Source of the DNA: a virus
Virus record (IMG/VR): IMGVR_UViG_3300021062_000086
Coordinates: 1 to 39,732 of that record
Length of the DNA: 39,732 nt
Direction: 5' to 3' (one strand)
Below the pieces are notes generated by a model that saw only the letters and a program-made list of their open reading frames with translations, ran no database searches and was not told where the DNA came from. Shown here piece after piece: positions 9,744-38,217 of this stretch. Every line of letters begins with the position of its first letter. Position 1 is the first letter of the stretch. Both the position numbers and the translations under genes were made by a program.

Positions 9744-9858
9744 GTCCAACGGGTTTTCGTAAACCACAAGAAAACACAAATTTCAACGCGATCACCGAGG
9801 CTTAGTGCCGTTTTGGCATTGGGCGGTTTACCGGCTTTTTTGGCGGTTTTCGAGCCCT

Positions 9859-17107: not shown

Positions 17108-17143
17108 GCGCCGCCCCGCCCGGCGCACTGGGGGGAAGAAGTG

Positions 17144-22077: not shown

Positions 22078-22169
22078 TGGTATACTAGCCCTGTAAGCTT
22101 CCGCCTCGCAGTCCCACAATGCCGCATCCCCACAATTCCAGCCTGAATCACGCCTGAAAGGGCTTACCC
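22078..22169 (+). promoter_or_regulatory. Late promoter-leader module 1
   Basis: An extended -10 (TGG-TATACT, TATACT at 22081-22086) is followed by two boxes, ACAATGCC (22116-22123) and ACAATTCC (22132-22139). Then come CTGAA elements and the SD AAAGGG, which can pair with the CCC just before the start codon. It resembles the modules at 24406 and 36763 and would drive the portal unit. Confidence 0.6.
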
Positions 22170-22529
22170 CTGCTTTACGAGTACGCCTGCTCGAAATGTG
22201 AAGCGCGGTTTGATCTCTCGCGAAGGGTCGATGACCGGGATGATCCGGCGCCGTGCCCTTCCTGCGGTGAGGCCTCGAAGCGCCAGTTCACCGCTCGCGT
22301 CCATTTCGTGGGCGCCAAGGTCGAGCACGCCGAATGGAACCCAGGATTGGGGTGCATTACGAAGAGTAAGCGGCACCGAGAAGAGATCGCAAGGCAGCGG
22401 GGATTGATCGAAGTGGGCTCAGAAAGCCCCGAATCCATTCGTCAGCACTATGAACGAGAGAGACGCGAGAAACGCGAAGCCTCCTATGATCAGGCACTGA
22501 AAGAGGTACAGGAGCAGGTGAATGGCTGA
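22170..22529 (+). CDS. FmdB-like zinc-ribbon protein, CTG start
   Basis: About 119 residues. The N-terminus, LYEYACSKCEARFDL, and PCPSCGEAS form the CxxC...CxxC ribbon of FmdB-type regulatory proteins common in phage packaging modules. The frame has no ATG, GTG or TTG until 22308, downstream of the ribbon. The best start is CTG 22170, 7 bases after AAAGGG and 89 bases after the -10 box, matching the 88 bases in the sister modules. It overlaps the portal start by 8 bases. Confidence 0.65.
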   Translation: MLYEYACSKCEARFDLSRRVDDRDDPAPCPSCGEASKRQFTARVHFVGAKVEHAEWNPGLGCITKSKRHREEIARQRGLIEVGSESPESIRQHYERERREKREASYDQALKEVQEQVNG

Positions 22530-24387
22530 GGTCATACCGGTCCTTGGAGAGCACCAGGCCTTAGGCCAGGGAATGAATTCCACAGAGCCGGCAGAGTATA
22601 CGCCGTCTGAAGCCGAACGAAAAGCAATCGCGCTCGTCAACAAGCTCTTTGCCAAGGCGAAATCCTACCGCCAGCAGTACGACCAGCACTGGATGGATTA
22701 CTACCGGATGTTCCGGGGCAAGCAGTGGAAGGAGCAGCGCCCCTCCTACCGGCATAGCGAGGTCATCAACAAGATCTTTCAGACGATTCAAAGCGTCGTC
22801 CCTGTCATGACGGATGCGAGACAGCGCTTTGAGTATCTGGCTCAAGACCCGAGCGACATGGAGTTTGCGAAAATCCTAGATGAGGTCGCTGAATCCGACT
22901 GGCAGAGGCAGAACTGGACGTTCAAGTTAGCCGAGATCATCTTTGACGGGCATTTCTACGGGACAGGTCTCTCTGAGTGCGGATACGACGGCAAGGCACG
23001 CTACAACCAGGGGCAGATCACGCTCGATTCGCTCGATCCCTTCTACTTCTTTCCAGATCCGGATGCCAGGGACTGTAACGAACGCGCAAGCTTCATGATC
23101 TATGCGGAACCGATTGAGGTTTCGAAGCTGAAAAGAGAGTATCCCGAGAAAGCACCTTTCATCAAAGCGGATCTGATCGATCTCGTCCAGGGATCCAAGA
23201 CTGACGTTGACGTCGTCCGGTTCCGCTCGCCTGTCGATACCAAGACCATCATCGAAGGAACGAGCGTCTATGACGCCTCCGTGCGCGATCAGGCGCTCAA
23301 GATGACGGTCTATCTTAAGTCAGAAGAGGTCGAGGAGGAGGAAAAGCGCTCAGTCGGCCCCGATGGACAGGAAGTCGTCGAGTACGAGAAGCGCCTGAAA
23401 TACCCGAACGGGCGAAAAATCTGTGTCGCAGGAGGCGTTCTCCTTCACGATGGGCCGAATCCATTCGATGACGGGCTTTTCCCCTATGCAAGACTCGTCA
23501 ACTACATCGATCCGCGCACGTTCTGGGGAATCTCTGAGATCGAGCAGCTCCAATCGCCTCAGAAGATCTATAACAAGCTCATCTCCTTTGCGCTCGACGT
23601 CCTGACCTTGATGGGAAACCCCATTTGGATCTGCGATGACACGGCCGGGATCGATACTGACAATCTGGTCAACCGACCCGGGCTTGTGGTTGAGAAGACT
23701 CCAGGCACGGAGGTCAGGCGCGAGGAGGGCGTTCAGCTTCAGCCCTACGTCCTTCAGCTCGCTGAGACGATGCGGAACTCGGTCGACGAGATTGCAGGCT
23801 CCCAGGAGGTCTCTCGAGGCGTCAGACCCGAGGGGATTACGGCAGCAAGCGCCATTGCCAGCCTCCAGGAGGCAGCTCAGACCCGGATCCGGCAGAAATC
23901 CCGCAATCTAGACGCGTTCCTTCAGTCAGTCGGCCAGCTCTACAAGAACCGGGTCTTTCAGTTCTACACGACCCCTCAGATCATCCGCGTCACAAACGAT
24001 CAGGCGGCATCCAAATACTTCAAATTTCATGTCCAGAATGAGCAGCAACCCGATGGATCGACTGTCAGGAAGGCCTACGTCAGGGATTACGTCCAAAATC
24101 CTGAGACGGGTCATTACTCAGAGACCCTGGAGACCCGGGAATTCATCCTGAGAGGGGATTTCGACGTGAAAGTCTCGACCGGATCGAGCCTACCCTTCGC
24201 GAAAGACGTCAAATTCAACCGTGCGCGACAGATGTACCTGGACGGTGTCTTTGACGAGGAGGAGTACTTGAAGGCTGCAGACATTCCCAACTGGCAGCCC
24301 ATCCTCGAGCGCGTGATGCAGAAGAAGCAGGCTGAAGCCCAGGCCCAGATGGCAGCGAAAGGAGCGCCCCAAGCAGTTCCCGCTTGA
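22522..24387 (+). CDS. Portal protein
   Basis: A 621-residue protein. The order of motifs suits podovirus-type portals: an N-terminal helical stem (VNKLFAKAKSYRQQYDQHW), RPSYRHSEVINKIFQTI, a DPFYFFPDPDARDC wing region, and the long helix region DEIAGSQEVSRGVRPEGITAA that lines the channel. The ring forms the DNA entry vertex and docks terminase and the neck. The C-terminus is Gln/Ala-rich. Confidence 0.85.
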   Translation: MAEVIPVLGEHQALGQGMNSTEPAEYTPSEAERKAIALVNKLFAKAKSYRQQYDQHWMDYYRMFRGKQWKEQRPSYRHSEVINKIFQTIQSVVPVMTDARQRFEYLAQDPSDMEFAKILDEVAESDWQRQNWTFKLAEIIFDGHFYGTGLSECGYDGKARYNQGQITLDSLDPFYFFPDPDARDCNERASFMIYAEPIEVSKLKREYPEKAPFIKADLIDLVQGSKTDVDVVRFRSPVDTKTIIEGTSVYDASVRDQALKMTVYLKSEEVEEEEKRSVGPDGQEVVEYEKRLKYPNGRKICVAGGVLLHDGPNPFDDGLFPYARLVNYIDPRTFWGISEIEQLQSPQKIYNKLISFALDVLTLMGNPIWICDDTAGIDTDNLVNRPGLVVEKTPGTEVRREEGVQLQPYVLQLAETMRNSVDEIAGSQEVSRGVRPEGITAASAIASLQEAAQTRIRQKSRNLDAFLQSVGQLYKNRVFQFYTTPQIIRVTNDQAASKYFKFHVQNEQQPDGSTVRKAYVRDYVQNPETGHYSETLETREFILRGDFDVKVSTGSSLPFAKDVKFNRARQMYLDGVFDEEEYLKAADIPNWQPILERVMQKKQAEAQAQMAAKGAPQAVPA

Positions 24388-24405
24388 GATTCCACGATTC
24401 TTGTG

Positions 24406-24496
24406 TGCTATAATTGCCGCATCGAGTAGTTCCACAATCCCACCTCGACACAATCCCCTAAAAACCGTCTGAAGTGCCCTTCCCAGGGAAGCCGCC
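24406..24496 (+). promoter_or_regulatory. Late promoter-leader module 2
   Basis: An extended -10 (TGC-TATAAT, TATAAT at 24409-24414) has a possible -35 TTGAGA (24384-24389). It is followed by AGTAGTTCC, two copies of ACAATCCC (24434-24441 and 24450-24457), CTGAAGTGCCC, and CTTCCC-A-GGGAAG, whose GGGAAG is the SD. The start codon is 88 bases after the first base of the -10 box. Confidence 0.7.
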
Positions 24497-24787
24497 ATGC
24501 CAGAAATGCCGCCCGAAGCTCCACAAGGAGCAGAAGGAGCGCCCCAACCCGGGGGTGCCCAGTCTCTCATCGCTGAAACCCACACGAATCTAGCCCAGAT
24601 CGCAGACATGCTCGCTCAAAGCGGGATGGAAGGCCCCGCAGGCCAGATGAAGCAGCTTCTCGACGGCTACAGGGCCGTGATCGAGGAGGTTGTCGGCGGC
24701 GGGGCGCCTCAGCAAGGCCCAGTGCCTGCTGAACAGGGCAATGTTCCTCCTGAAACGGCCGGAAAGCCTGCAGTGAGGGCCCTCTAA
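24497..24787 (+). CDS. Small Pro/Gln-rich head-module protein
   Basis: A 96-residue protein. Low-complexity Pro/Ala/Gln ends surround a helix (AQIADMLAQSGM...KQLLDGYRAVIEEVV). It is first in the scaffold/capsid unit and likely an accessory to assembly. It has no recognisable domain. Confidence 0.5.
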   Translation: MPEMPPEAPQGAEGAPQPGGAQSLIAETHTNLAQIADMLAQSGMEGPAGQMKQLLDGYRAVIEEVVGGGAPQQGPVPAEQGNVPPETAGKPAVRAL

Positions 24788-24788
24788 C

Positions 24789-25670
24789 ATGCTGGAAGGC
24801 ACTCCCTCAGGCGGATCCGCGCCCGATATCGACGTTGATGCCCTCTTAAACCAGATTGAGTCGCCGGGAAGCTCAGAGATCCCGATGACAGCGGCTGGGG
24901 CTGAGCCCAGTGTGGCGCAGGCTCCTCCTCAGCCGCCCCAAGAGTATGAGTTTACGGCGAACGGAAAGCCCATCAAGGCCCCGCTCGACAAGATTCTGCA
25001 GTGGGCCTCTCAGGGATACGACTATCCCCAGAAGATGGCGGAACTGAACCGCCGGCAGCAGGAGTTTGAAGCCCAGCAGAGGGCACTGAAAGAGATCGAG
25101 GGCCGCTACAAGCCCATTGATGATTACGTTCGCGAGAACCCGCAGTGGTGGGAGCATGTGGAAAGCTCCTGGAAGCAGCGGGAACAGGCGTTTGATCCCA
25201 ACAATCCCATCGCACAAGAGATTCAAGCCCTTCGCTCCCGACTGGGTGAGCAGGATCAGATCATCCAGGAGTGGAAACAGGAGCGCGAGCAGAGGCGGAT
25301 CCAAACCGAGGACGCCCAGTATCAGGAGCAGATGGAATCCATTCGGAAAGAGTTTCCGAATCTAGATCTCACCACTCCTGGGGCCGATGGCAAGTCACTC
25401 GAATACAAGGTCTTAGAGTACGCCCAGAAAGAGGGTATTAGGAACTTCAAGACCGCGTTTCGCGACTTTTACCATGACGAGATCCTGAAGCTTCATGCCG
25501 AGCGCGCGAAGGAAGAATCTGCCAAGGACCTGCAAAAGAAAACCAAGCTTGGACTATTGGGGAAATCCCCAACTCCTCAGCAGAGCTTGGCTCCGGTCCA
25601 AAACCTAAAATCCAAATCTTACGAAAGCATTCTGGACGAGGTGAAAGCCGAGCTCGGCCTGGGTGCTTAA
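24789..25670 (+). CDS. Scaffolding protein
   Basis: A 293-residue acidic, helical protein. It has a disordered N-terminus, then a segment starting YEFTANGKPIKAPLDKILQW, long coiled coil (MAELNRRQQEFEAQQRALKE), and a Lys/Leu-rich C-terminus that would bind capsid. It is placed directly before the major capsid gene. The assignment rests on composition and position. Confidence 0.7.
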   Translation: MLEGTPSGGSAPDIDVDALLNQIESPGSSEIPMTAAGAEPSVAQAPPQPPQEYEFTANGKPIKAPLDKILQWASQGYDYPQKMAELNRRQQEFEAQQRALKEIEGRYKPIDDYVRENPQWWEHVESSWKQREQAFDPNNPIAQEIQALRSRLGEQDQIIQEWKQEREQRRIQTEDAQYQEQMESIRKEFPNLDLTTPGADGKSLEYKVLEYAQKEGIRNFKTAFRDFYHDEILKLHAERAKEESAKDLQKKTKLGLLGKSPTPQQSLAPVQNLKSKSYESILDEVKAELGLGA

Positions 25671-25682
25671 TGGGGGAAGGCC

Positions 25683-26603
25683 ATGCCACTGACGTATGAC
25701 CAGCTGAGTGCGATCACTCAGAAGAAGTTCATTCCGAAGCTTTACGACAATATCTTTGACTCCAATGCGCTCCTGATGCGGCTCAAGAAGAAGTCGTATG
25801 AGAAGCTGGACGGCGGCGAGAGAATCGTCGTGCCGCTCAACTACGCGACTGTGACGAGCTCCGGTTGGTATTCGGGCGCCGACACGCTGCTCACGACCGA
25901 CAACGACGTCATGACCGCTGCCGAGTACACTTGGAAGCAGCTTTACGCCAATATCTCGATCACTGGCGCTGACGAGCGAAAGAACTCGGGCGACTCTCAG
26001 GTCCTGAGCTTGGTGAAAAACAAGGTCAAGATCGCCGAGAAGACCATGCTCGATAAGCTTGGAACCGGGATCTACTCGGACGGGAGCGACACGAAGTCGA
26101 TCGTGGGCCTCCGGGACATCGTGGCCACCGACCAGACCGTAGGCGGCATCTCTCAAAGCTCCTACAGCTGGTGGCAGGGCGGGGTCGATAGCACGACAAC
26201 CGTTCTTTCGATCGCTGCCATGCAGACCCGGTTCACTGCGGCTACTGTCAATAACGATAAGCCGACTGTGATCGCAACGACCCGGACGCTGTACAACTCG
26301 TACTACGCGCTTTTGCAGCCTCAGCAGCGGTTTCAGGACTCTGAGACCGCCAAGGGCGGCTTTGAGAACCTGATGTTCAACGGCGCGCCGGTTATTCCGG
26401 ATAGCTACTGCCCGGCCTCAAATATGTTCTTCCTGAACGAGAACTATCTCCACCTTTTCGTTCACAAGGATTGTGACATGAAGTTTGAGCCGTTCCAGAA
26501 GCCGGTGAATCAGGACGTCAAGACCGCCAAGATCCTGTGGATGGGGGCTTTCGGTAGCTCCAATAACAGGCTTCATGGGCGGCTCTCGGCCACAACTTCC
26601 TAA
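25683..26603 (+). CDS. Major capsid protein
   Basis: A 306-residue protein with SD GGGGGAAGG. The N-arm (LTYDQLSAITQKKFIPKLYD) is followed by an alpha/beta body with features of HK97-fold coat proteins: ERIVVPLNYA, ISITGADERKNSG, and near the C-terminus MKFEPFQKPVNQDVKTAKIL. No protease domain is fused and no protease gene lies nearby, so maturation may not use cleavage. Confidence 0.85.
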   Translation: MPLTYDQLSAITQKKFIPKLYDNIFDSNALLMRLKKKSYEKLDGGERIVVPLNYATVTSSGWYSGADTLLTTDNDVMTAAEYTWKQLYANISITGADERKNSGDSQVLSLVKNKVKIAEKTMLDKLGTGIYSDGSDTKSIVGLRDIVATDQTVGGISQSSYSWWQGGVDSTTTVLSIAAMQTRFTAATVNNDKPTVIATTRTLYNSYYALLQPQQRFQDSETAKGGFENLMFNGAPVIPDSYCPASNMFFLNENYLHLFVHKDCDMKFEPFQKPVNQDVKTAKILWMGAFGSSNNRLHGRLSATTS

Positions 26604-26621
26604 TAGGTGAGGTGAACACAC

Positions 26622-27110
26622 ATGGGATCCATGCAATGGCATAGTGCAGGCCCGATTCAGTTTGAATCGGTCTCTCAGGTCACGGCGACCCCGTCGGTCG
26701 ATCTGGGAACGAGGCTCTGGTATCAGGGCGAGGAGTACGTCTACTGCTACAATTCAGGGGGCGGACAGGCGAGCAAAGGCAATGGTGTCAAGTTCATCAC
26801 CGGTGCGAGCGGTTACTCGGTCGCTGCGACCTCGTTGACCGATACCTTCAGTCCGTGTGTCGGCGTGGTGAAGCACTCGACCATGGCGACGGCCGATTAC
26901 GGCTGGGTCATGGTGAGGGGCTTTGCGTCGGTTGTCATGGTGTCGGCCACGACCGCTGATTACAAGATGATTGCCTTGGGAGTGGACGGCAAGTTCATCG
27001 AGGCCTCTGGCACTACCACGATGGGGACTGCAACGGTTGTCGGATACGTCCTTGGGGCGAATACCGGCGCTGGCGGCACGGCCTACGCTTTCATCAAGAC
27101 CGGGGTCTAA
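26622..27110 (+). CDS. Capsid-associated or decoration protein candidate
   Basis: A 162-residue Gly/Ala/Thr-rich beta protein directly after the capsid gene (SD GAGGTG). It has no membrane or catalytic motif. Position and composition suggest a head decoration or stabilising protein. Its many Ser and Thr would be possible glycosylation targets. Confidence 0.6.
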   Translation: MGSMQWHSAGPIQFESVSQVTATPSVDLGTRLWYQGEEYVYCYNSGGGQASKGNGVKFITGASGYSVAATSLTDTFSPCVGVVKHSTMATADYGWVMVRGFASVVMVSATTADYKMIALGVDGKFIEASGTTTMGTATVVGYVLGANTGAGGTAYAFIKTGV

Positions 27111-27117
27111 TCCAACC

Positions 27118-27231
27118 ATGTTGAGGCGGGTGCGCTCAGTGCTGAGGGAGCTGACGCAGCAAATGCCCTTCCTGCGAGAAGGGCAGCCCGCCTCTACACA
27201 ATCTCACAAGGACAATCGACGATGGTTCTAA
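27118..27231 (+). CDS. Possible 37-residue leader peptide
   Basis: MLRRVRSVLRELTQQMPFLR and a basic tail are encoded across the RNA structure at 27123-27194, and its stop overlaps the Maf-like start (27222). There is no SD. It may be a leader whose translation opens the structure, or a chance ORF. Confidence 0.25.
   Translation: MLRRVRSVLRELTQQMPFLREGQPASTQSHKDNRRWF
27123..27194 (+). ncRNA. Three-way-junction RNA before the Maf-like gene
   Basis: GAGGCGGG (27123-27130) pairs with CCCGCCTC (27187-27194). Inside are TGCCCTTC/GAAGGGCA (27164-27171/27178-27185) and GCTC/GAGC (27134-27137/27148-27151). The SD for the next gene comes 13 or so bases later. A possible attenuator or processing structure. 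Confidence 0.5.
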
Positions 27232-28238
27232 AAACGGTAGAGATGGATTTCGAGTACATGAATATGATTCCTGGACCGCCCAGGAATCAGCAGGAGATGT
27301 ACGCCCAGGCCTGCAGCAACGATAAGACGACGGTCTCGACGTGGCGGCAGCAGTGGTTGGAACAGATCGCAGCCAATAAGGCCAGGTTCGGCTCCTTCAA
27401 AGCCCAGGGGATTGGGCAGCTCTACGGGAAGTTCGATAAGCAGCCCGTGATCGTGGCGGGCTCAGGGCCTTCGCTTAAGAATTCGATCGAAGACCTCAAG
27501 GACACGAAAGGGATCCCCATCCTCTCCTGCCTGCACAATTTCCATTACATGGAAGATCACGGGGTCAAGGTCGACTACTACGTTAGCCTGGACGCCGGTG
27601 CCGTCACGATTCCAGAGATCGCTGAAGGCGGGAAGAAGACGTTAGACGAGTACAAGGAGCTGACGAAAGACCGGACGCTCCTCTGTTTCATCGGGACGCA
27701 CCCGGATCTCCTCAAGCTCTGGCAGGGCAAGGTTCTTTTCTTCAACTGCCCGATCCCCGATGAGGGGCTTCTCTCTGAGATTGAGAAGATCGAGCAGTTC
27801 CATACTTACGTATCGACCGGCGGAAATGTCCTGGGAGCTGCGACCTACATTGCCAAAGCGATTCTAGGAGCCAACCCCATCGCCTGGGTGGGATCGGATT
27901 TCTGCTTCTCCTACTCCAAGCAGTTTCACCCGTGGAAGTCGAAGTACGACGGGAACCTGGGTGAGGCGATGCGGGCGGTCGACGTCTTTGGCAACAAGGT
28001 CCTCACCTGGGCAAGCTACTTCAACTTCAAGATCTGGTTTGACTGGCTGGCGTCGACCGTGGCCGGGCTCTACATCAACTGTTCAGAGGGCGGCACGATG
28101 GGAGCCTACCCCGAGGGCAACATCATGCAGATTCAGCAGATGCCGCTCAAACGATTCTTGTGGATGTACACGATGTACCATGAAATGCGGGCGCAGTGCT
28201 TAGAGCCCGAGAAGAAAGACATGAAAATTCTGTTCTAG
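27222..28238 (+). CDS. Maf/DUF115-type glycosyltransferase-like protein
   Basis: A 338-residue protein with the DUF115/MptE-like core: VIVAGSGPSLKNSIEDLK (~residues 83-100), DYYVSLDAGA (~120), and TGGNVLGAATYIAKAILGA followed by IAWVGSDF (~205-230). This core is shared by Maf proteins, which in flagellated bacteria attach pseudaminic or legionaminic acid to flagellin. It lies among capsid genes, so a virion protein is the likely acceptor. Related pterin kinases (MptE) are the main alternative. It pairs logically with the NeuB, SpsF and GNAT genes elsewhere in this genome. Confidence 0.7.
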   Translation: MVLKTVEMDFEYMNMIPGPPRNQQEMYAQACSNDKTTVSTWRQQWLEQIAANKARFGSFKAQGIGQLYGKFDKQPVIVAGSGPSLKNSIEDLKDTKGIPILSCLHNFHYMEDHGVKVDYYVSLDAGAVTIPEIAEGGKKTLDEYKELTKDRTLLCFIGTHPDLLKLWQGKVLFFNCPIPDEGLLSEIEKIEQFHTYVSTGGNVLGAATYIAKAILGANPIAWVGSDFCFSYSKQFHPWKSKYDGNLGEAMRAVDVFGNKVLTWASYFNFKIWFDWLASTVAGLYINCSEGGTMGAYPEGNIMQIQQMPLKRFLWMYTMYHEMRAQCLEPEKKDMKILF

Positions 28239-28251
28239 GAGGAGCGAGAAC

Positions 28252-28521
28252 ATGGCCTTTACGTTGGATATCATCAGTAAGTCGGTTTGGGGGAATAAGC
28301 GCCAGCACTGCGTTTCGTGCTCGATCGATTCGGCGAGCGGGAACATCGATACCGGCCTATCGGTGATTGATTACTTCTCGATTGGCCAGATCTCGATGGC
28401 GACTGCCTCACCCACATTCAAGAAGAACATCGGCTCGGGCGCGACCTCGAGGCCTGGAATCCTGAACATCAACTCAGCTGCCGCAGGGGACGTCTTTTAC
28501 GTCGTCGCAGTAGGACGGTGA
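28252..28521 (+). CDS. Small virion-associated protein candidate
   Basis: An 89-residue beta-rich protein (SD GGAGGAG). The sequence TLDIISKSVWGNKRQHC followed by INSAAAGDVFYVVAVGR resembles small proteins encoded after capsid genes. The role is unknown. Confidence 0.55.
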   Translation: MAFTLDIISKSVWGNKRQHCVSCSIDSASGNIDTGLSVIDYFSIGQISMATASPTFKKNIGSGATSRPGILNINSAAAGDVFYVVAVGR

Positions 28522-28524
28522 CCC

Positions 28525-28875
28525 ATGGCGCACGGTCATGGGTTTCGGGTTTTCTCAGTTACGATCGCATCAGGGGCGACTCTGAGCAGCGAGATCGACC
28601 TGGGGAGGCTCTTTCAGAAGGTTTACATTGACCCGACGGGTGCCAATTCCGAAGTCAGGTACCAGGCTGCTGAGAAAGCCTCAGGCACCTACCGGCAGGT
28701 GTATCTGCCTCAGGCGGCGGGAACTTCAACCGTCCAGGCAAACATCTGGAAGGTAGCAAGCGCAGTATCGGGAGGAGTCATCGAAGGCCCGACTGGGCTT
28801 CGGTACCTCAAGATTGAAACGACCGCTGCAGTGAGTGATGGGGCGACCCTGAAGCTGATCTGCGGCGATTTTTAG
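28525..28875 (+). CDS. Beta-rich structural protein candidate
   Basis: A 116-residue protein (FRVFSVTIASGATLSSEIDL). The Ser/Thr-rich beta layout and its place in the head module suggest a decoration or head-completion protein. I recognise no family. Confidence 0.55.
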   Translation: MAHGHGFRVFSVTIASGATLSSEIDLGRLFQKVYIDPTGANSEVRYQAAEKASGTYRQVYLPQAAGTSTVQANIWKVASAVSGGVIEGPTGLRYLKIETTAAVSDGATLKLICGDF

Positions 28876-28896
28876 ACGAAAAGGAGACGATCCCAG

Positions 28897-29271
28897 ATGG
28901 CCAATGTCCGCGTGTGGAACGATAACGTGCATCCTTACCGGGAGAAGTTCAAGGACTGGGATATCCATATCCCGCCTAAATCCTTCATCGAGATGGAAGA
29001 GGGCGAAGCGATCCTGTTTAGGGGCACGTTCAGCTTCCCGAAGCTTGATGCCGACGGCAATGACATGCCCGAGGGGTTTAAGATGATCCGGCTAGAGCCA
29101 ATCGGTCCATCTGAGCCCGTCAAGGTGGATGAGAACCGCTGCCTGGCCTGCACCTATAAAGCGTCGTCCAAGGCGGATCTCGATGAGCACGTCAATGCGA
29201 TGCATCTCGAGCAGATGGTCGATAAGGACGAGCAGGAAAAGCGCATCAAGGCCAAAGCCAAGGCGCACTGA
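28897..29271 (+). CDS. Head-module protein with C2H2-type zinc finger
   Basis: A 124-residue protein. The first ~80 residues form a beta domain (VRVWNDNVHPYREKFKDWD). Residues ~87-110 fit CLAC-x12-H-x4-H, a C2H2 finger pattern that is unusual in phage structural modules. The tail is Lys-rich. A DNA- or protein-contact role within the head or neck is possible. Confidence 0.6.
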   Translation: MANVRVWNDNVHPYREKFKDWDIHIPPKSFIEMEEGEAILFRGTFSFPKLDADGNDMPEGFKMIRLEPIGPSEPVKVDENRCLACTYKASSKADLDEHVNAMHLEQMVDKDEQEKRIKAKAKAH

Positions 29272-29282
29272 TCGGAGGAACC

Positions 29283-29753
29283 ATGGGGTTTAAGCGCGTC
29301 GAAGATCCGACAGCAGTGACGCTCAAGGGGAGATGGCGCGCTGAACTCCGTGGGCCGGATGGGGAGCTGAAAGAGGTCAGAGAAGGCAATAACGTCGTCT
29401 GCACGAACGGCAAGGAGTTCCTGGCCTCTTTTCTCCAGAGTGCAGCGGCTGCGGCCTCGACCTTCACCATGCGGTACATCGCCATTGGAACAGACTCGAC
29501 TGCCGAGGCTGCTGCCAATACCGCGCTCGGCACTGAGCTCGCTCGGCATACGGGGACCGTCAGCTACGTATCGAACCAGATCTACAAGGTGACGGCGACC
29601 TTTGCGACAGGCTCTGGCACGGGAGCCATCGTGGAATATGGTCTATTTAGTTCCAATACGGCTGGAACGATGCTCGCTCGTGATACGGAGAGCGCGATCA
29701 ATAAGGGCGCGAATGACACCCTGACGGTAGTCGCCCAGATCACGCTTTCCTAG
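29283..29753 (+). CDS. Structural protein candidate
   Basis: A 156-residue protein (SD GGAGG). RWRAELRGPDGELKE followed by NVVCTNGKEFLASFLQ and a Thr/Ala-rich beta section. The pattern 'GNNVVxTxGxxFLA...YIAIGT' is common in phage tail or base proteins of unknown role. Confidence 0.6.
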   Translation: MGFKRVEDPTAVTLKGRWRAELRGPDGELKEVREGNNVVCTNGKEFLASFLQSAAAAASTFTMRYIAIGTDSTAEAAANTALGTELARHTGTVSYVSNQIYKVTATFATGSGTGAIVEYGLFSSNTAGTMLARDTESAINKGANDTLTVVAQITLS

Positions 29754-29768
29754 CCCAAGGGAGGGGCA

Positions 29769-30167
29769 GTGGCTGATTTCTCGCAGACGATCTCGAATGT
29801 GGTCAACTGCTTCGGGGGATCGCCATCGACGAAATGGGGAAATAACGCTCCTTACACAATGACCTGGGGAACGTCCAAATGGGGCGAGGGCACGGAAGAT
29901 CTTCAGGTCGCAGTAGTGAAGCTGATTTCAAACTCACAATCCCTTTCTGACGACTATTCGCGCAGGGTAGAAAAGCTAGTTTCAAACGATCTGACGCCTA
30001 CGTCAGAGACGACCTCAGAGACGCTTCAGGACGGATCCGGCTGGAGATACGTATTCACGTCGGACACGACTGAGGCTGAGAACCGAGATGAAGCTTCCTA
30101 CTCCTCAGGGACGGCTGCGAGCACCAGCTGGACCTCTGCGACGGCTGCCTCTACCAGCTGGAGCTAG
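29769..30167 (+). CDS. Structural protein candidate
   Basis: A 132-residue protein with a GTG start and SD GGGAGGGG. Trp/Gly-rich (KWGNNAPYTMTWGTSKWGEG), ending in the direct repeat TAASTSW. Likely a small neck or tail component. The function is unknown. Confidence 0.5.
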   Translation: MADFSQTISNVVNCFGGSPSTKWGNNAPYTMTWGTSKWGEGTEDLQVAVVKLISNSQSLSDDYSRRVEKLVSNDLTPTSETTSETLQDGSGWRYVFTSDTTEAENRDEASYSSGTAASTSWTSATAASTSWS

Positions 30168-30172
30168 GCTCA

Positions 30173-30829
30173 ATGACGCCATCTGAACTCGAGACTCATG
30201 CGCGCAGGCGTTATAACGCCGTAGGCGATACCTTCTGGTCGCAGCAAGAGATCTTGGACTACCTCTACAACGCCTGCCTCCAGATGGCGCGCGAGGCGCT
30301 CGTCATCGAGCAGGCGTATACGACGACCACGGTCGCAGGAACGCAGGAGTATGCGTATCCGACGAACACGATTCAGATCAAGCGCGTCACCTACAATGGA
30401 TCGAAGCTCCAGCCGATCAACTTCAGGGAAGATGATGCGCTGACGGGTTTCAATGCGTCGACGACGGCTCAGGGGTCGCCTCAGTATTACGCGATCTGGG
30501 ATGAGACGCTGATCTTGAGACCCATCCCCGATGCGGCTCAGACGCTGAAGATTTACAGCTACAACGAGCCCCAGGCCATTACGATCACCTCCACTCTTGA
30601 GGTCCCCTCCCAGTTCCACATGGATCTTCTCGATTACGTGAATGCTGAGATGGCAGCCAAGGACGAGAATTTTAAAGCAGCTGAGTACTACATGAAGCAA
30701 TGGGCGGATAACCCCATGAAAGGGCTCATGGCCGCCAAGCGGTATGCGGCGAGAAAGAAGAGGGGTGATGCTTTCGCTGCGGTTCAGGATGAGGAGCGAC
30801 TCGGGATCACGATCCTAGGGATGGTATGA
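30173..30829 (+). CDS. Head-tail adaptor (gp6/gp11-like)
   Basis: A 218-residue protein. The pattern ELETHARRRYNAVGDTFWSQ, QQEILDYLYNACLQMA, YPTNTIQIKRVTYNG and a C-terminal helix pair matches podovirus adaptor proteins that bind the portal underside. It sits directly before the nozzle-like gene, with which it overlaps by 4 bases, as expected for a short-tailed phage. Confidence 0.75.
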   Translation: MTPSELETHARRRYNAVGDTFWSQQEILDYLYNACLQMAREALVIEQAYTTTTVAGTQEYAYPTNTIQIKRVTYNGSKLQPINFREDDALTGFNASTTAQGSPQYYAIWDETLILRPIPDAAQTLKIYSYNEPQAITITSTLEVPSQFHMDLLDYVNAEMAAKDENFKAAEYYMKQWADNPMKGLMAAKRYAARKKRGDAFAAVQDEERLGITILGMV

Positions 30830-32724
30830 GCGGGCAGAAGATCTATCCTGGCAGAAAGCCGATTCTCTTCGATGGGGGGCTCAACAATAAGTTTGAGCGC
30901 TCGATCATCGAGGACAATGAGTCGCCTGACTGCCTGAATGTCGTTTTTTCCAACGGATCTGTCGCAACTCGCGACGGGTTTGCCAAGCACAATACCGCTG
31001 CCATTGGGTCATTTGTGATCGATGGGCTTTACGTGAGGCGCGCCAACGACTCGACTGAGACCATGATCGCCTTTGCGGGAGGCTCGGCCTGGGCGTTGGG
31101 GGGAACGAGCTTTACGACGATCGCCTCAGCGCAGTCGGTCTTTACAGCAGGCGTTCGGGTCGGGGCTTCTCAGTTTGAGAACCATCTCTTTTGCGGCAAT
31201 GGATACGTGATCCCCTACAAGTGGAACGGGACGAACTGGACCCGTCACGGGGTGTATCCTCCGACGACGACTCATTCCGTAGCATCTCAGGCCGTAGGTG
31301 TCTTGACCGGCGATTACCGGTACAAGGTCACTGCAGTCAACTCGCAGAGTGTCGAAAGCGACGTGGGCCCAGTCAGCACGACATTCACTGCGGCCGGGGC
31401 TACCCTCCGGGTGTCCTCCATCCCGACCTTTGCGGCAAGCTTCGGGATCAGTGAGAGACGCCTTTACCGCACGGAGGCGGGGGGTAGCACTTTTAAGCGC
31501 GTGACGACGATCGCGGATAACACGACGACGACCTATGACGACAATAACGCCGACTCAGCCCTAGGTGCGACAGCTCCGACCGATAACGGCGTTCCGCCCA
31601 AGTACTCGGTGATCATCTATCACCAGCGGCGGCTTTTCATGAACGATCTCGCGAACCCGAGCTACGTCTGGTACACGGGTCTTGACGAGCCTTACACGGT
31701 CGCTTCAACCAACTTCTTTATCGCAGGCGATGCGAGCGCGGATCTGGTCAAGGGCTTCGGCGTCTATGACAACTCGCTTGTGATCTTCTGCGAGAAATCC
31801 GCCTGGATCAATTACATGCCATCTACTTCGGATTCGGATTGGCGCCGGGTCAGGGTAAAGTCGAGCTACGGGACGAAATCGCCCTTTTGTATCCTCGATT
31901 ACAATAACAAGACGCTCTTTCCAGCCATGCAGAATGACAAGCTGGCGGGTTTCGCAGCGCTCAACGGCGATACGGTCGATCCCTCGGCGACCCTTCTCAC
32001 CGTTTCGACCGCAGGAAGCGATCTCAAGAGCGAACGCATCGAGCCTGACGTCTTCAACATGCAGGAAAGTTACGTCGGGAACTTCTCGGGCATGGTGTTT
32101 AAGAATAAGGCCTACATCGCCGTCACCTACGGCTCAGGCCAGACGACGAATAACCGTGTCTATGTGATGGACTTCTCGATTTCCAACATTGCCAAACGCC
32201 AGAGAGAAGCTTGGGTCCCTTGGACGGGGCTGAACGCTGCTCAGTTCGTCATTTATGCCGGCAATCTCTACTACGGGTCATCGACTGCCACAGGATTCGT
32301 CTACAAGCTCAACTCAGGCGTCTATTCCGACGATGGAACGGCGATCAATTCCTATTTCTGGACGAAAGAATTCGACGGCGGGTCGGAAGACGCAGAAGCC
32401 CACAAGGACTTCCGGGATGCCCGCTTCCTGGTCGAAAAGGCCGGCGACTACTTCATGACCCTAGGCTGGCGGGTGGACTCAGACTCAGGAGACGGCGATA
32501 CCGCGCAGATTGATCTCGACCCGGGAGGCTCCCTGTGGGGTTCCATGGTCTGGGGGCGCGATAACTGGGGCGGCGGGGTGGATCAGCAGGAGATCAGGCA
32601 GCCCTTGGCGGGCGCCCGGGGTCAGAGGATTCAGTTCAAGTTCTCGAATCAGAACAGGGTGGGCCAGATGTTTAAGGTCCACTGGGGAAAGTTTTCCTAT
32701 AACCCGAAAGGGAGGAATAGATAA
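30826..32724 (+). CDS. Tail nozzle-like beta-propeller protein
   Basis: A 632-residue protein. Its start (GRKPILFDGGLNNKFERSII) resembles podovirus tubular-tail/nozzle proteins such as T7 gp12. The body is a run of beta strands with repeated Gly-Thr-Asn turns. NSQSVESDVGPVSTTF looks like a short Ig- or fibronectin-like insert, and ISERRLYRTEAGGSTFKRV follows it. It would form the DNA exit below the adaptor. Confidence 0.7.
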   Translation: MSGQKIYPGRKPILFDGGLNNKFERSIIEDNESPDCLNVVFSNGSVATRDGFAKHNTAAIGSFVIDGLYVRRANDSTETMIAFAGGSAWALGGTSFTTIASAQSVFTAGVRVGASQFENHLFCGNGYVIPYKWNGTNWTRHGVYPPTTTHSVASQAVGVLTGDYRYKVTAVNSQSVESDVGPVSTTFTAAGATLRVSSIPTFAASFGISERRLYRTEAGGSTFKRVTTIADNTTTTYDDNNADSALGATAPTDNGVPPKYSVIIYHQRRLFMNDLANPSYVWYTGLDEPYTVASTNFFIAGDASADLVKGFGVYDNSLVIFCEKSAWINYMPSTSDSDWRRVRVKSSYGTKSPFCILDYNNKTLFPAMQNDKLAGFAALNGDTVDPSATLLTVSTAGSDLKSERIEPDVFNMQESYVGNFSGMVFKNKAYIAVTYGSGQTTNNRVYVMDFSISNIAKRQREAWVPWTGLNAAQFVIYAGNLYYGSSTATGFVYKLNSGVYSDDGTAINSYFWTKEFDGGSEDAEAHKDFRDARFLVEKAGDYFMTLGWRVDSDSGDGDTAQIDLDPGGSLWGSMVWGRDNWGGGVDQQEIRQPLAGARGQRIQFKFSNQNRVGQMFKVHWGKFSYNPKGRNR

Positions 32725-33479
32725 TGCCGATGCCAGGACAGCAGGCGCAGCAGTCGCTGCCTGAATATGATCTCGCCAGGAAAAGGGCCCAGCAGCGGGT
32801 GACCGCATCGGGCCAGGAGCAGCAGGATGCCCTGAAGAGGCGGTTCGCGGCCCTCGGAGGGCTCAATAGCGGGGCTTACATCAAGCAGCAGCAGCTCGCG
32901 CAGGACAGGCAGCAGGAGCAGCTCCAGGACGCAAACGAGGGGATTGATGTTCAAGAAAACGCCGAACGCAGGCGGCTTCAGGAGCTGAAAGAGGGTAGGG
33001 AGTTTCAGGCTGGGGAAGCTCAGAAGCAGCGGGAGTTTGCCTCAGCTGAATCTCGGCTAGGCCGTGAGTTCGCCTCGGGTGAGTCTGCCCTGGGGCGAAG
33101 GTTCGCAGCTGAGCAGGCGCACCTGGGCCGCGAGTTTGATGCTGGGCAATCCGAAAAGCAGCGCCAATGGGCCAAGACTGAGGCCCATGACCAGCGGATG
33201 TTCCAGAAGCAGCTGACCGAGCAGGATCTGGAGTTTAAGAACAAGGTGTTTAACGCCGAGAACGCGGCGCGCATCGATCAGTTCAACTTGGCGCTCAAGC
33301 AGTTTGAGATGGATAAGGATACTACTGAGTTCAACAAGTGGCTGGCTCGAGAGGAGCTCAACCGGCCGGATGGGCTCATCAGAAGCATTGGAGGCCAGGG
33401 GGGCCTGTTCGGGCTCTATGGATCACGAAAAGGCGGCGGCTGGGCAGGAAAAGTGTTCGACCCAGGCGGGTTGTTTTAA
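32724..33479 (+). CDS. Internal virion protein with heptad-like repeats
   Basis: A 251-residue, strongly helical protein rich in Gln, Glu and Arg. Residues ~105-150 hold repeated units of the type E-x-x-LGREFA (SRLGREFASGESALGRRFA, then AHLGREFDAGQS). It looks like a long coiled coil. Position after the nozzle suggests an ejected or internal core protein. Confidence 0.6.
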   Translation: MPMPGQQAQQSLPEYDLARKRAQQRVTASGQEQQDALKRRFAALGGLNSGAYIKQQQLAQDRQQEQLQDANEGIDVQENAERRRLQELKEGREFQAGEAQKQREFASAESRLGREFASGESALGRRFAAEQAHLGREFDAGQSEKQRQWAKTEAHDQRMFQKQLTEQDLEFKNKVFNAENAARIDQFNLALKQFEMDKDTTEFNKWLAREELNRPDGLIRSIGGQGGLFGLYGSRKGGGWAGKVFDPGGLF

Positions 33480-33488
33480 GGGGGATCT

Positions 33489-33836
33489 ATGGCGCAGGTC
33501 ATGATGCCACAGAGAAGGGCTGGAACCCCATTCGGAGCAGTTGGATCCGCGGTGGGCTCGATCTATGGACCGGTTGGGTCTGCCATCGGAGGGGCCGCAG
33601 GCGGAATGCTCGATCAGCAGGGGGCGAGAAAGCCTCCCGGCGCGGTTCAGTCGCCCGGAAATGCCATTGATCGCAGAAAGCAGCAGCTGGATGAGGCGGA
33701 TCCTACCAAGGCCCTTGAGGCCGGGATTCAGTCGCTGCCTGAAATGCCCGACGAGGTGCGCGCTGAGTATGAAAAGCCGCTTATGGAAGCCTATCAGCGG
33801 GCAAGGGCGCAGAAGATGACTCCCGGAGGTGTCTAA
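33489..33836 (+). CDS. Glycine-zipper ejection protein candidate
   Basis: A 115-residue protein. FGAVGSAVGSIYGPVGSAIG is a glycine-zipper segment able to insert into membranes, and the rest is charged. Small Gly-zipper proteins occur among podovirus ejection genes and may help form the DNA channel. Confidence 0.55.
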   Translation: MAQVMMPQRRAGTPFGAVGSAVGSIYGPVGSAIGGAAGGMLDQQGARKPPGAVQSPGNAIDRRKQQLDEADPTKALEAGIQSLPEMPDEVRAEYEKPLMEAYQRARAQKMTPGGV

Positions 33837-34096
33837 TGGCGGTTGAAGTCAGTCGACCGAAGAAGAAGGAAAACGATGCGCTAGGAACTGCTGGGATGGG
33901 GCTCCAGATCTTCCAGGCGTTCAAGGGGTCGGGTGGAAAGCCTGGTGGGCAGGCGGATGCCTCGTCACAGTATAGCGGGGGCGGGAGTGGAGTCGGGATC
34001 TCATCGAAGAGGAGCCTAGCTCAGGCTGACGACGGCGGGGCGATGGGAAGGCGCTTTAAAACCCTTCGCGGCTCCGGCTATGGAGGGTACGCCTAA
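33836..34096 (+). CDS. Small Gly-rich virion protein
   Basis: An 86-residue low-complexity protein (SSQYSGGGSGVGISSKRS). It shares bases with both neighbours, which indicates coupled translation with the ejection proteins. The function is unknown. Confidence 0.5.
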   Translation: MAVEVSRPKKKENDALGTAGMGLQIFQAFKGSGGKPGGQADASSQYSGGGSGVGISSKRSLAQADDGGAMGRRFKTLRGSGYGGYA

Positions 34097-35022
34097 TGCC
34101 AGTCGCAGTGAATCAGCCGCAGAGGCGAGAAAGTGGGCTCGATAACCTTGTCAAAGCGCTCCAGGTCGCGCAGTCCATCTATGGCATCAAGACGGACATG
34201 TCGAAAGCCAAGCTCCTGAAAGAGCAGCAGGAGCGCGAGACGCAGATTGCGCAGGAGAAGGCTGGCCGTGAGAAGACCGAGTTTGAGCAGAAGCAGGCTG
34301 ATTGGCAGAACCAGAATAGCCCGGACAGTCAAGAGTCCATCTTGGGCAGGAAGGTTGCCGAGCAGGCGGGGTACAAGGTTAGTCCGACGACTACCGCAGC
34401 TCAGCTGAAGAACACTCCCGGACTGAAGGAAGTTGTCGAGTCGCTCGCCAAATCAAAGGCGACGGCGCAGACGGCAGAGCCGAAGGAGAATCAGGGGCGT
34501 GCCGCGCTTTTCGGTAAAATGATGGAGCAGGCGGAGCAGGACTTTTCCAATCTAACGCGATCAGGATTCGATCCGACTAGCCGGATGGCGGCGACAGGTA
34601 ACGCGATCACTCCAGAACCATTTAAAGGGGAGAACTGGAAGCTACAGAAGCAAGCAGAAAGGAACTTCCTAGCGGCCTACCTTCGTAGGACTTCTGGAGC
34701 GTCTATCAAAGATGAGGAAATCGAAGAGGGTGCGGTCCAGTTCTTCCCGCGTCCCGGCGACACTCCGGCAGTGATCGAACAAAAGGCTGCCAATCGGGCG
34801 CTCGCGATCGAGTCGTTAAAGATGGAAGCCGGGCACTTCTGGGGCAAGGTGAAGATCCCGCCGCGAATGCCGCTTGATCAGTCAAAAGCGGGCGGATTCG
34901 GAGTGCCAGGAGTTCAGGATGCGCAGGCCAAGGCGGCTCCCGAGATTGGAGCAGTCCAGAAGGGTTACCGATTCAGGGGAGGCGACCCTGCGAATCCTAA
35001 AAGTTGGGAGAAGGTGAAATAG
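34096..35022 (+). CDS. Internal virion / DNA-ejection protein
   Basis: A 308-residue protein with a helical N-terminus. ERNFLAAYLRRTSGASIKDE and VQFFPRPGDTPAVIEQKA followed by NRALAIESL are motifs that recur in ejection proteins of podoviruses. The C-terminal GYRFRGGDPANPKSWEKV is also a familiar terminal motif in such proteins. Confidence 0.65.
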   Translation: MPVAVNQPQRRESGLDNLVKALQVAQSIYGIKTDMSKAKLLKEQQERETQIAQEKAGREKTEFEQKQADWQNQNSPDSQESILGRKVAEQAGYKVSPTTTAAQLKNTPGLKEVVESLAKSKATAQTAEPKENQGRAALFGKMMEQAEQDFSNLTRSGFDPTSRMAATGNAITPEPFKGENWKLQKQAERNFLAAYLRRTSGASIKDEEIEEGAVQFFPRPGDTPAVIEQKAANRALAIESLKMEAGHFWGKVKIPPRMPLDQSKAGGFGVPGVQDAQAKAAPEIGAVQKGYRFRGGDPANPKSWEKVK

Positions 35023-35024
35023 CG

Positions 35025-36749
35025 ATGGCTGGCCCATGGGAAGACTATCAGAAGAAGGGAAAGTCTGATGAAAGCGGCCCATGGATGGACTATCAGGCTG
35101 CTCCTGCGTTTCCCAAGGACGCTCGGACCTTCGGACAAAAGGCCGTTGACGCTGCGGTTGGCGTGGCAAACAAGATCGACTCCTACACTGGGGCTCCAGT
35201 TCGGGCTGCCATTGGAGAATTTCAGAAATCAAACGATCTGGTCGCTGCTGGCCGCGCACTAAAGGGCCAGTTTGGAGAGGACCCGAAGCGGGCACCGACG
35301 GAACGTCAGATCGCTCAAAAGGCCGGTGTTTCGACTGAAAAGATCCCATTTCAGGCGCTTCCACTCCCTTTCAAGGCCGCTGCTCTGGCTGGTTATGGGC
35401 CGACCTATGAGGATGCCGCTGCGGTCGGCATCGGAGCGACAGCCGATCTTTCCAATATCATTCCCGCTGCAGGTCTAGCGGGAAAGCTCGCCAAGGGATC
35501 GACCACGTTCGCCAAGGCGGGGCAAGGACTGCAGAAGGGTGCGGAAGTCGTTAGCGGATTGGCCAGTAAGCTCGGCAGGAAGACGGCAGCTACACTTACC
35601 GGGCTACCCGAGAAGGACATTGCGACTTATGCCAGGCGGACCGGCGAAGTCGAGAAGCTGATCAAAGATAGCGGTGGGGAGCTTCCTGCTGCGGCCGACA
35701 AGATCAGGGAAGATCTTCAGACAGCCATTCGGGCGAAACGAAAGGAGCTGTCCGATCAGGTTGGAAAAAGCCTCCAGGCGGTGGGTCCTGAGCGTAATAT
35801 CGACATTCAGCCCGTTTTGGCCCAACTGGAGAAGGCCAAAGGAGCACTCAATCCGAACTATGACCGTGGGGCAATAGGTCAGATTGACGAGCTTATCCAG
35901 GAGATCAAGCGAGGGGCCAATGCCCAAAGTTCCCCCTTCCCAGGGGTTGAGAAGACTGAATACCTCGTCAGCGCCAAAGATTTGCACGACATTAAGGAGC
36001 TTCTTCAGGACCGAGCTCGATCAGCTTACCTGAAGGACGGCCAGATCTTTCAGGCGGCACCGCAGTCAGCCAGGGCCGCCAAGGCCGCGGGAGCCATCGC
36101 CAGGAAGCAGATCAATAGCATTGCACCTGAAGTCGGGAAGGCCAATAACCAGCTGGCCGCGCTGCATGAGCTTGAATCCAGGCTAAATAAGAATCTCCTC
36201 TCCCCTGGAAAAAGTGATTCGGCGCTCTATGCGGCTGGATCCGGTTCGAATCAGCGCAATCAACTGATGCTAAAGAAGATGGGCGATATCACTGGATACC
36301 CCATTCAGCAGAAGGCAGAGAATCTTTCGGCTGCACGGACGTTCAAGGACGCCCAATGGCTTCCGGCTGACAATACGGGTAAATCCGTCGCCAGGATGCT
36401 TGGTGGATTCGGAGCGGGTTTCCTTGTAGCTGGCCCGAAGGGGGCTATTGCCCTGGGTGCTTTGACCAGTCCCGCCGCGCTCAAGTTTGCGATTCGGACT
36501 GGTCGCGTATCGACTGAAATGGTCAGCAAGCTCGCTGGAGGCGCGAAAGACCTGTCGGATGCCACGATCGGACGAGCGTTCCGGGCGCTCAATACCGCTG
36601 AAGGACAGGCTGTACTGAAGTCCTATCGCGCTGGCGCCCCTGAAGCCGAGGGTATGGCTGGCGGTACCAGGAAGGTCGCTGCTGACGAGGAGGACAAGGG
36701 TCTGAAAGGCGCCATCCAGAGGAGGCAGCGCAAATCCTCTGGACCCTAG
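35025..36749 (+). CDS. Large internal virion protein with GPWxDYQ repeats
   Basis: A 574-residue protein from the ATG at 35025. The N-terminus has two copies of GPWxDYQ (AGPWEDYQ and SGPWMDYQ), a motif repeated at the start of many podovirus internal proteins. Helical regions, Ala/Gly-rich hydrophobic stretches (near residues 130-160 and 460-490) and a basic tail follow. No lytic transglycosylase motif is visible. It likely enters the cell envelope during DNA ejection. Confidence 0.65.
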   Translation: MAGPWEDYQKKGKSDESGPWMDYQAAPAFPKDARTFGQKAVDAAVGVANKIDSYTGAPVRAAIGEFQKSNDLVAAGRALKGQFGEDPKRAPTERQIAQKAGVSTEKIPFQALPLPFKAAALAGYGPTYEDAAAVGIGATADLSNIIPAAGLAGKLAKGSTTFAKAGQGLQKGAEVVSGLASKLGRKTAATLTGLPEKDIATYARRTGEVEKLIKDSGGELPAAADKIREDLQTAIRAKRKELSDQVGKSLQAVGPERNIDIQPVLAQLEKAKGALNPNYDRGAIGQIDELIQEIKRGANAQSSPFPGVEKTEYLVSAKDLHDIKELLQDRARSAYLKDGQIFQAAPQSARAAKAAGAIARKQINSIAPEVGKANNQLAALHELESRLNKNLLSPGKSDSALYAAGSGSNQRNQLMLKKMGDITGYPIQQKAENLSAARTFKDAQWLPADNTGKSVARMLGGFGAGFLVAGPKGAIALGALTSPAALKFAIRTGRVSTEMVSKLAGGAKDLSDATIGRAFRALNTAEGQAVLKSYRAGAPEAEGMAGGTRKVAADEEDKGLKGAIQRRQRKSSGP

Positions 36750-36762
36750 CCCAAGCCCGGGT

Positions 36763-36852
36763 GCTATACTTACGGCAGTTCAAAGTAGTCCCACGATTCC
36801 ACCCGACGATTCCCATCTGACAGTCTGAAGTGCCCATTCCGGGAGTCGTCGC
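36763..36852 (+). promoter_or_regulatory. Late promoter-leader module 3
   Basis: An extended -10 (TGC-TATACT, TATACT at 36765-36770) is followed by AGTAGTCCC, two ACGATTCC boxes (36793-36800 and 36806-36813), CTGAAGTGCCC and a CCC...GGG mini-hairpin around the SD. The start codon (GTG) is 88 bases after the first base of the -10 box, exactly as in module 2. Confidence 0.7.
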
Positions 36853-38217
36853 GTGCCCGCTCCATCAGTTACCTACACGTTTTCGAACTCGACCACAGCG
36901 GATGCGAGTCAAGTTAACCAGAACTTCACGGATATCATCAACGGCGTCAGTGACGGCACTAAGGACCTGTCGATCTCGGCCCTCACCTGTGCAGGGACTG
37001 CGACTCTGAACGGCAACGTAAACCTCGGCAATGCCTCAGGTGATGATCTCACGATCACGGCGAGTCTTGCATCCACCATCGCGATCAAGACGACGAACTC
37101 CTATGACATTGGCTCTTCGACCTTAGGCCTCCGGTCCATCTACTTCGGAAGCTCAGGGGGCGCGTTCGGAACGCGGCTCATCGGCGGCGCCGTTACTGGG
37201 AACATCACACTCACTCTTCCGATCACCGACGGCGATGCCAGGGATTTCCTCCAGACCGATGGCTCAGGCACCATGTCCTGGCAGCCGCACAGGCGTAGCG
37301 CCTGGGGCGGTTACAACGTCGGGATTGCCTGCTCAGTTGCCTCCAATGCGCTGACGATCGCTCTCAAAGGCGCTGACGGAAACGACGCCTCGGCTACCAA
37401 CCCCGTTGAGATCCCATTCCGAAGCTCAACCGCTGCGACAGGAACGGTCACTAACCGGACGGTTACTGCTGCTCTATCCATGACGGTCAGCTCGGGCTCG
37501 ACCTTGGGGCATACGGACGGGACTGCGCATCCCATCTATGTCTACGCGCTCGATAATTCTGGGACGGTGGAGCTCGCCGTCTCCCATACCCTCTTTGACG
37601 ACGGCACCCGGCAGTCGACGACCGCAGAAGGAGGCGCAGGAGGCGCGGATTCCAATGCGGTCATGTACTCGACGACTGCGCGCACCGACGTGCCCGTCAG
37701 GCTTCTGGCGAGACTCACCAGTAATCAGACGACGGCCGGCACCTGGGCAGCGGTTCCGACCGAGATCGCCGTGGGACACTTCGAACCTAAGCACGTTGGC
37801 GTCCGGGCTAGGACGGCCGCAGGTCAGTCGATGCTCAATACCGATACGACGATTGTCGTCTTCGGAACTGAGATCTATGACACTCACGGGGCATTTAACT
37901 CATCCACCGGTGTCTTTACCGCGCCTGCAGCCGGTTATTACCATGTGGCAGCTCACTGCCAGGTGTCTGATAGCTCGGCGGCTGGAATCTTCTTCTTAGA
38001 TCTCTATCAGAACGGATCAAACGTCTCGCGGCTCTGCTTCCAGGGGAAGATGGGGACGAATACCGAGAACGTGGGGCTCGGAGGCTCAGCCGTTGTGAAG
38101 TGCGCGGTAGGGGACACACTCGATGTTCGCCTGACGAACCAGTCCGGCGCCAATGAAACGCTGATAGCGACTGCTGCCCTCAACTGGATCGCAATCGACA
38201 AGTTCTATGACATTTAA
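36853..38217 (+). CDS. Tail fibre with C1q-like tip domain
   Basis: A 454-residue protein with a GTG start. The N-terminal ~130 residues (VTYTFSNSTTADASQVNQNF, then DLSISALTCAGTATLNGNVN) are typical of phage fibres. From residue ~318, FGTEIYDTHGAFNSSTGVFTAP and AGYYHVAAHCQ match the C1q/TNF-like trimeric beta domain seen at fibre tips. It is the likely receptor-binding protein and starts its own transcription unit. Confidence 0.8.
   Translation: MPAPSVTYTFSNSTTADASQVNQNFTDIINGVSDGTKDLSISALTCAGTATLNGNVNLGNASGDDLTITASLASTIAIKTTNSYDIGSSTLGLRSIYFGSSGGAFGTRLIGGAVTGNITLTLPITDGDARDFLQTDGSGTMSWQPHRRSAWGGYNVGIACSVASNALTIALKGADGNDASATNPVEIPFRSSTAATGTVTNRTVTAALSMTVSSGSTLGHTDGTAHPIYVYALDNSGTVELAVSHTLFDDGTRQSTTAEGGAGGADSNAVMYSTTARTDVPVRLLARLTSNQTTAGTWAAVPTEIAVGHFEPKHVGVRARTAAGQSMLNTDTTIVVFGTEIYDTHGAFNSSTGVFTAPAAGYYHVAAHCQVSDSSAAGIFFLDLYQNGSNVSRLCFQGKMGTNTENVGLGGSAVVKCAVGDTLDVRLTNQSGANETLIATAALNWIAIDKFYDI

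Follow-up and report, generated by a model that had tools for sequence, protein, structure and literature searches.

IMG/VR virus record IMGVR_UViG_3300021062_000086 is a 39.7-kb stretch of DNA (39,732 nucleotides) from an uncultured phage, analysed here at its full length and referred to as the window, in which short tandem boxes precede several late genes. Gene identities were assigned with PHROGs and Pfam. They include the terminase large subunit (20716-22074), the portal (22522-24387), the major capsid protein (25683-26603), an MptE/Maf-like gene (27222-28238), a C1q-domain fibre-like gene (36853-38217, start GTG 36853) and an amidase (26-421). A tyrosine integrase (8476-9600) and a helix-turn-helix (HTH) repressor-like gene (4465-4665, minus strand) are also present and make a temperate lifestyle probable. 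Another HTH gene lies at 17141-17464. About 100 related loci in IMG/VR have the same late gene order. Prokaryote genome contigs searched with the major capsid protein contained no relative, and the portal region found no match among phage records by blastn.

A sequence-only reading of the window had described three late modules, each consisting of an extended -10 element followed by a pair of ACRATNCC boxes, and all three lie on the plus strand where that reading placed them. In module 1, the extended -10 TGGTATACT (22078-22086) is followed by ACAATGCC (22116-22123) and ACAATTCC (22132-22139). Module 2 has TGCTATAAT (24406-24414) and two copies of ACAATCCC (24434-24441 and 24450-24457), with CACAATCCC recurring exactly at a spacing of 16 (p=0.01). 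Module 3 comprises TGCTATACT (36762-36770), a first box ACGATTCC (36793-36800) and a second that reads, with its flanks, CGACGATTCCC (36804-36814). The box spacings of 16, 16 and 13 (22116/22132, 24434/24450, 36793/36806) and the start codons 89, 88 and 88 bases past the -10 elements were borne out, and the first box proved longer than originally described, since AGTYCCACRATNCC occurs in all three modules. The boxes sit 19-29 nucleotides downstream of the -10 and end 30-39 nucleotides ahead of the start. A TGnTATAAT-like element is present in each module, so that modules 1-3 are predicted to be headed by sigma-70 extended -10 promoters; these elements are the only plus-strand matches to TGNTATAMT in the window (3 observed against 0.23 expected per strand, Markov-1 model). 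The full module, an extended -10 with two ACRATNCC boxes, was found three times, compared with none in 60 simulated windows. Compared pairwise, the leaders of modules 1-3 have best shared segments with scores of 16, 16 and 11, where the maximum in 594 random pairs is 12, and a query of the window with module 2 DNA retrieves module 3 as its only other match (E 1.3e-4).

Module 1 had been taken as the head of the portal unit. The portal gene does lie downstream, but the first gene is an FmdB-like zinc-ribbon gene (22170-22524, plus strand; PF09723, E 4.8e-10; phrog_1076), which has no standard in-frame start codon and is likely to start at CTG 22170.

Weaker arrays are found at two further genes. 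Module 4 (463-509, plus strand; AGTAGTACCACGATGAA, with ACGAT at 472, 494 and 502), which the first reading had missed, precedes a small membrane gene, named HDL here (start GTG 513), and has no clear promoter. The HDL gene is also led by boxes in the relatives G025 and G002; in G025 (L127, about 1400-1500) it lacks an in-frame ATG, GTG or TTG at the expected place. A weak pair previously noticed ahead of the MptE/Maf-like gene is present and has been refined to 27198/27212 (ACAATCTC / ACAATCGA, 27198-27219, plus strand, no promoter), and box-like pairs before the Maf genes of G001 (an ACCAAT pair) and G002 give it weak support. Upstream of that pair, at 27111-27197, GAGGCGGG and CCCGCCTC enclose GCCCTTC-GAAGGGC, and a hairpin stands at the matching place in L014 (CCCAGGCAGAAG...CTTCTGCCTGGG) and other relatives, possibly as a processing or attenuation structure. 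Boxes at a gene start without a recognisable -10 occur not only in the HDL and Maf leaders but also at the terminase and FmdB genes of G002 and at the terminase gene of G016. The box is therefore tied to the gene start and not to the promoter, and the link between box and promoter that had been proposed goes too far. No strong array was seen outside the late leaders of the window. A complement of the first box at 17712-17728 on the minus strand (15/17) was judged a coding coincidence, and boxes ahead of FmdB in G016 (L035 724, 829) were set aside because they appear to be coding.

Is the element conserved in related phages, as the first reading required? Its sequence is not, but its architecture is: syntenic relatives carry two or three tandem boxes ahead of late genes, and each phage has a box sequence of its own. 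Two pattern scans of IMG/VR for the exact window boxes gave 6 and 16 matches, none of the 16 encoding a protein of the family, and these were rejected as apparent chance matches in other sequence. The closest relative, G001 (L032), whose major capsid protein is 84% identical, has TGCTATACT followed by AAGCCCGCC / AAGCCAATC / CAGCCAATG in its fibre leader and TGCTATCAT followed by AAGCACGCC / TAGCCAATT / AAGCCAATC in its scaffold leader; the distance of 89/88/88, as read from the sequence, is not kept there. G002 (L015/L016; 82%) uses AA[CA]TTACAG, at spacings of 17/16 before the scaffold and fibre genes, 16/15 before FmdB and 16 before the terminase. G025 has three copies of AACTTATCC, spaced 16/15, before both its scaffold and HDL genes, and G016 has TATTTATC at spacing 9 before its scaffold and terminase genes. 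CACCTAT is common to the portal and scaffold leaders of L031 and L027, and in G021 the scaffold gene is preceded by two copies of TTAAATTCCC and the fibre gene by one. Box spacing ranges from 8 to 18 across phages and is largely kept within one phage, and extended -10 elements similar to those of the window recur in the portal-scaffold gaps of relatives (combined p 3e-5). Module 2 matches module 3 at 73% identity across 80 nucleotides, as would follow if a single leader cassette had recently been duplicated within each genome and kept by drift, without function. This origin is hardly credible for the boxes as a whole, as module 3 and the G001 fibre leader have their promoter-proximal 20 nucleotides in common (CGGCAGTTCAAAGTAGTCCC / CGGAAGTTCAGAGTAAGCCC), yet their boxes match within each phage and not between these orthologous leaders, and in G002, G025 and G016 the sharing is limited to the boxes and their spacing.

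The cleanest test of box sharing takes a box model built from nothing but the portal-scaffold leader and scans it over all available sequence of the same phage, on both strands. In six of eight phages the best other match was a late-gene leader, and in the remaining two the second-best was; random segments treated identically succeeded in 9 of 900 cases (about 1% expected). The top matches were module 1 in the window, the fibre leader in G001, HDL in G025, the terminase in G016 and the portal in L031, while in G002 the terminase, FmdB and fibre leaders took ranks 1-3 and the Maf leader rank 4; the two rank-2 cases were the fibre leader of G021 and the portal leader of L027. All of these leader matches lie on the sense strand. 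Leaders of one phage also share more with each other than leaders of different phages do (Mann-Whitney p=1.5e-6, in a comparison partly assembled after looking). Among 29 portal-scaffold leaders of 60-250 nucleotides, 6 have direct repeats at p<0.02, whereas none of 85 coding controls reaches p<0.05 (Fisher p 1.3e-3; p values of repeats from dinucleotide shuffling). The leaders tend to be unusual in composition, most of 20 being C-rich and G-poor enough to rank among the top 5% of their genome's windows, and boxes might arise as a by-product of such unstructured leaders (Rho-type or standby sites) without any sequence-specific factor. That account appears very improbable, leaving as it does the exact repeats of 8-14 nucleotides, the equal spacing within a phage and the success of one-leader models unexplained. 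The suggestion that the box is a site for a phage factor coordinating late expression is well supported as far as a phage-specific site is concerned, because boxes are common within a phage and differ between phages, and RNA is slightly favoured over DNA as the level at which it is read.

The case for RNA comes from the ribosome sites. Those of 24 leaders have a mean unpaired value of 0.37, compared with 0.45 for 98 other starts in these phages, and so are less accessible (p 0.001, with a few start codons set by eye), and pairing of the ribosome site with the upstream leader is stronger than in shuffled sequences (20 leaders, combined p 6e-4). In several cases the cause is pairing of the Shine-Dalgarno region with the last box, as predicted for module 3, G001, L027, L031, L028 and L022. 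In module 3, the second box is predicted to form 11 bp (p=0.007) with the ribosome site GGGAGTCGTCG (36841-36851, plus strand). The G021 fibre leader could form a 12-bp helix of ATTTAAATTCCC with GGGGATTTAAAT, including one G-U, as read from the sequence. The small GGG/CCC fold that had been proposed for all three modules is predicted in module 2, where the hairpin CUUCC-CAG-GGAAG (24479-24491, plus strand) covers the ribosome site, but is absent from the predicted structures of modules 1 and 3; in module 1 the ribosome site is predicted to pair with the 5' end of the leader. No single conserved leader fold was found, and the leaders could not be aligned across phages. Reduced accessibility, pairing of box and ribosome site and the spacing kept within a phage slightly favour a factor acting on RNA, and an oriented DNA site remains compatible with them.

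Long leaders go with integrase. Taking a portal-scaffold leader of 80 nucleotides or more as long, the gap measures at least 100 nucleotides in 9 of 9 larger records with an integrase and at most 63 in 15 of 15 without (24 records; the integrase-less L115 was excluded for other sequence inside its gap). On the capsid-protein tree, the integrase and leader-length traits each change five times. The boxes are probably connected with the temperate way of life, and this association is one reason to consider oriented DNA sites of the stoperator kind, at which a phage repressor bound to asymmetric prophage boxes would block transcription into the late genes. A repressor on the boxes would explain both their phage-specific sequences and the link to integrase, and the sites resemble stoperators in being asymmetric, in one orientation, intergenic, short, near gene starts and present in integrase-bearing members (PMC9283540). 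The immunity region of the window, however, has no box array and carries instead a 20-bp near-palindrome AGTATCTCACGTGTGAGACT (4717-4736) between the HTH gene and the early genes; this candidate operator is unlike the boxes, which argues against their being repressor operators. Arrays of two or three copies and their pairing with ribosome sites are likewise foreign to stoperators, and this explanation is possible but doubtful.

Phage-specific recognition is usual for antitermination systems. The boxes might be Q-like or nut-like sites for antitermination or late-activator loading, where RNA polymerase would be modified by a phage protein to read the long late operons. The late genes involved and the combination of a promoter with a transcribed element in modules 1-3 fit such a role, and the 21Q protein binds two direct 6-bp repeats (PMC6606751), but these lie between -35 and -10 and not in the leader. 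No Rfam family reached its threshold anywhere in the window, and the open reading frames tested (Pfam, PHROGs) yielded no homologue of Q or N, Q proteins diverging strongly. Moreover, the late block of G002 has several arrays (terminase, FmdB, scaffold, Maf) where one loading site per operon would suffice. This alternative appears rather unlikely.

The reading preferred here, with a probability of roughly 45%, is that the tandem boxes are cis-acting sites of a phage-specific late regulon, mainly read at the RNA level. A phage-specific factor, most likely encoded by the phage, would recognise two or three copies of the box in late 5' leaders and control the use of the downstream ribosome site, the progress of transcription, or both. 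In the window phage it would act on the leaders of the extended -10 promoters before the FmdB/portal, capsid and fibre genes, with a weaker effect at HDL and Maf. Several observations weigh against this proposal. No trans-acting factor was found, and the integrase-bearing L073, L094 and L067 have long leaders with no detectable repeat. No box pairs with the ribosome site in modules 1 and 2, so such pairing is not universal, and spacing and orientation also fit an oriented DNA site. In G025 the boxes of the HDL gene may extend into the coding frame. As to integrase, only three well-supported independent pairs are available, all concordant but too few for significance, and some records may be incomplete, so that integrases could be hidden. 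Direct observation covers the arrays, their sharing within a phage and divergence between phages, their place and single orientation at late gene starts, the lowered accessibility of the ribosome sites and the association of long leaders with integrase; the factor, its binding to RNA in place of DNA, the sign of its control and a link to the lysis-lysogeny decision are inferred. A further, doubtful step would be that the late mRNAs of temperate family members bear a tandem RNA code peculiar to each phage, by which a fast-diverging phage RNA-binding factor opens only that phage's own late leaders for translation, with a specificity like that of immunity but at the RNA level.

Some other features of the locus deserve mention. 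The window holds genes of a nonulosonic (sialic-like) acid pathway at 712-1437, 1889-3124, 3312-3926, 14233-15123 and 27222-28238, a set made up of a NeuA-like cytidylyltransferase, a class III aminotransferase, a GNAT protein, NeuB and the MptE/Maf-like protein. NeuB was found in 11 of the 12 larger records searched and so looks like a family trait, and the pathway possibly serves glycosylation of the virion or host surface. Behind the integrase gene, at about 9684-9750, the sequence as read is similar to a tRNA-Leu gene in its 3' part and is a candidate attachment site; Rfam and tRNA scans returned nothing. The relative L071 has a tRNA-Met-like gene between FmdB and portal (6696-6839, also read from sequence). 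A collagen-like protein of tail-fibre type (522 amino acids, 18915-20483) is encoded directly ahead of the terminase, outside the tail region.

The boxes expose a late-gene control element in a widespread yet uncultured phage family. Their sameness within a phage and difference between phages offer a route to the regulator through covariation, and the approach of training on one leader to predict the others is transferable to other phage groups. If the boxes act on RNA, they would represent a new way for temperate phages to keep capsid and packaging genes silent and could allow a phage to tell its own transcripts from those of other phages.

How do the arrays compare with known systems? A literature search of partial coverage found no description of them. 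The stoperators of Cluster A mycobacteriophages (L5, TipsytheTRex) are 13-bp sites bound by the immunity repressor, with more than 20 per genome, including promoter regions (PMC9283540). They too are short, asymmetric, phage-specific repeats of temperate phages, intergenic and in one orientation to transcription, as are the boxes with their sense-strand leader matches. The boxes differ in forming arrays of two or three copies at late gene starts only, separate from the palindromic candidate operator, and the same site does not recur at early or immunity promoters or genome-wide. The Start-Associated Sequences (SAS) of Cluster K mycobacteriophages, whose function is unknown, and the extended SAS (ESAS) are also repeats upstream of start codons with an extended consensus that varies by subcluster, but SAS stand where the ribosome site would be, only 3-7 bp before the start of non-structural genes, and ESAS are inverted repeats (PMC3203893). 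Here the repeats are direct, precede late genes and lie mostly about 17-47 nucleotides from the start, those of modules 1-3 being farther upstream than SAS. The Q-binding element of phage 21 is similar in combining a late promoter with a pair of direct repeats that a phage protein recognises, but its repeats stand upstream of the transcription start site, between -35 and -10 (PMC6606751), and the boxes of modules 1-3 downstream of the -10. In phage Mu, the small zinc protein Com binds the late mRNA of mom and activates its translation (PMC6483171). The likeness lies in a phage protein acting on late mRNA. The target of Com is single and structured, belongs to one gene and is not known to have tandem boxes, and thus differs from the arrays described here. 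Stoperators, Cluster K SAS/ESAS and Q-binding elements are the nearest known kinds, and in every one of them at least one of the defining features that were compared does not agree with the boxes, whose pattern suggests that late genes are switched by a phage-specific mechanism not described before.

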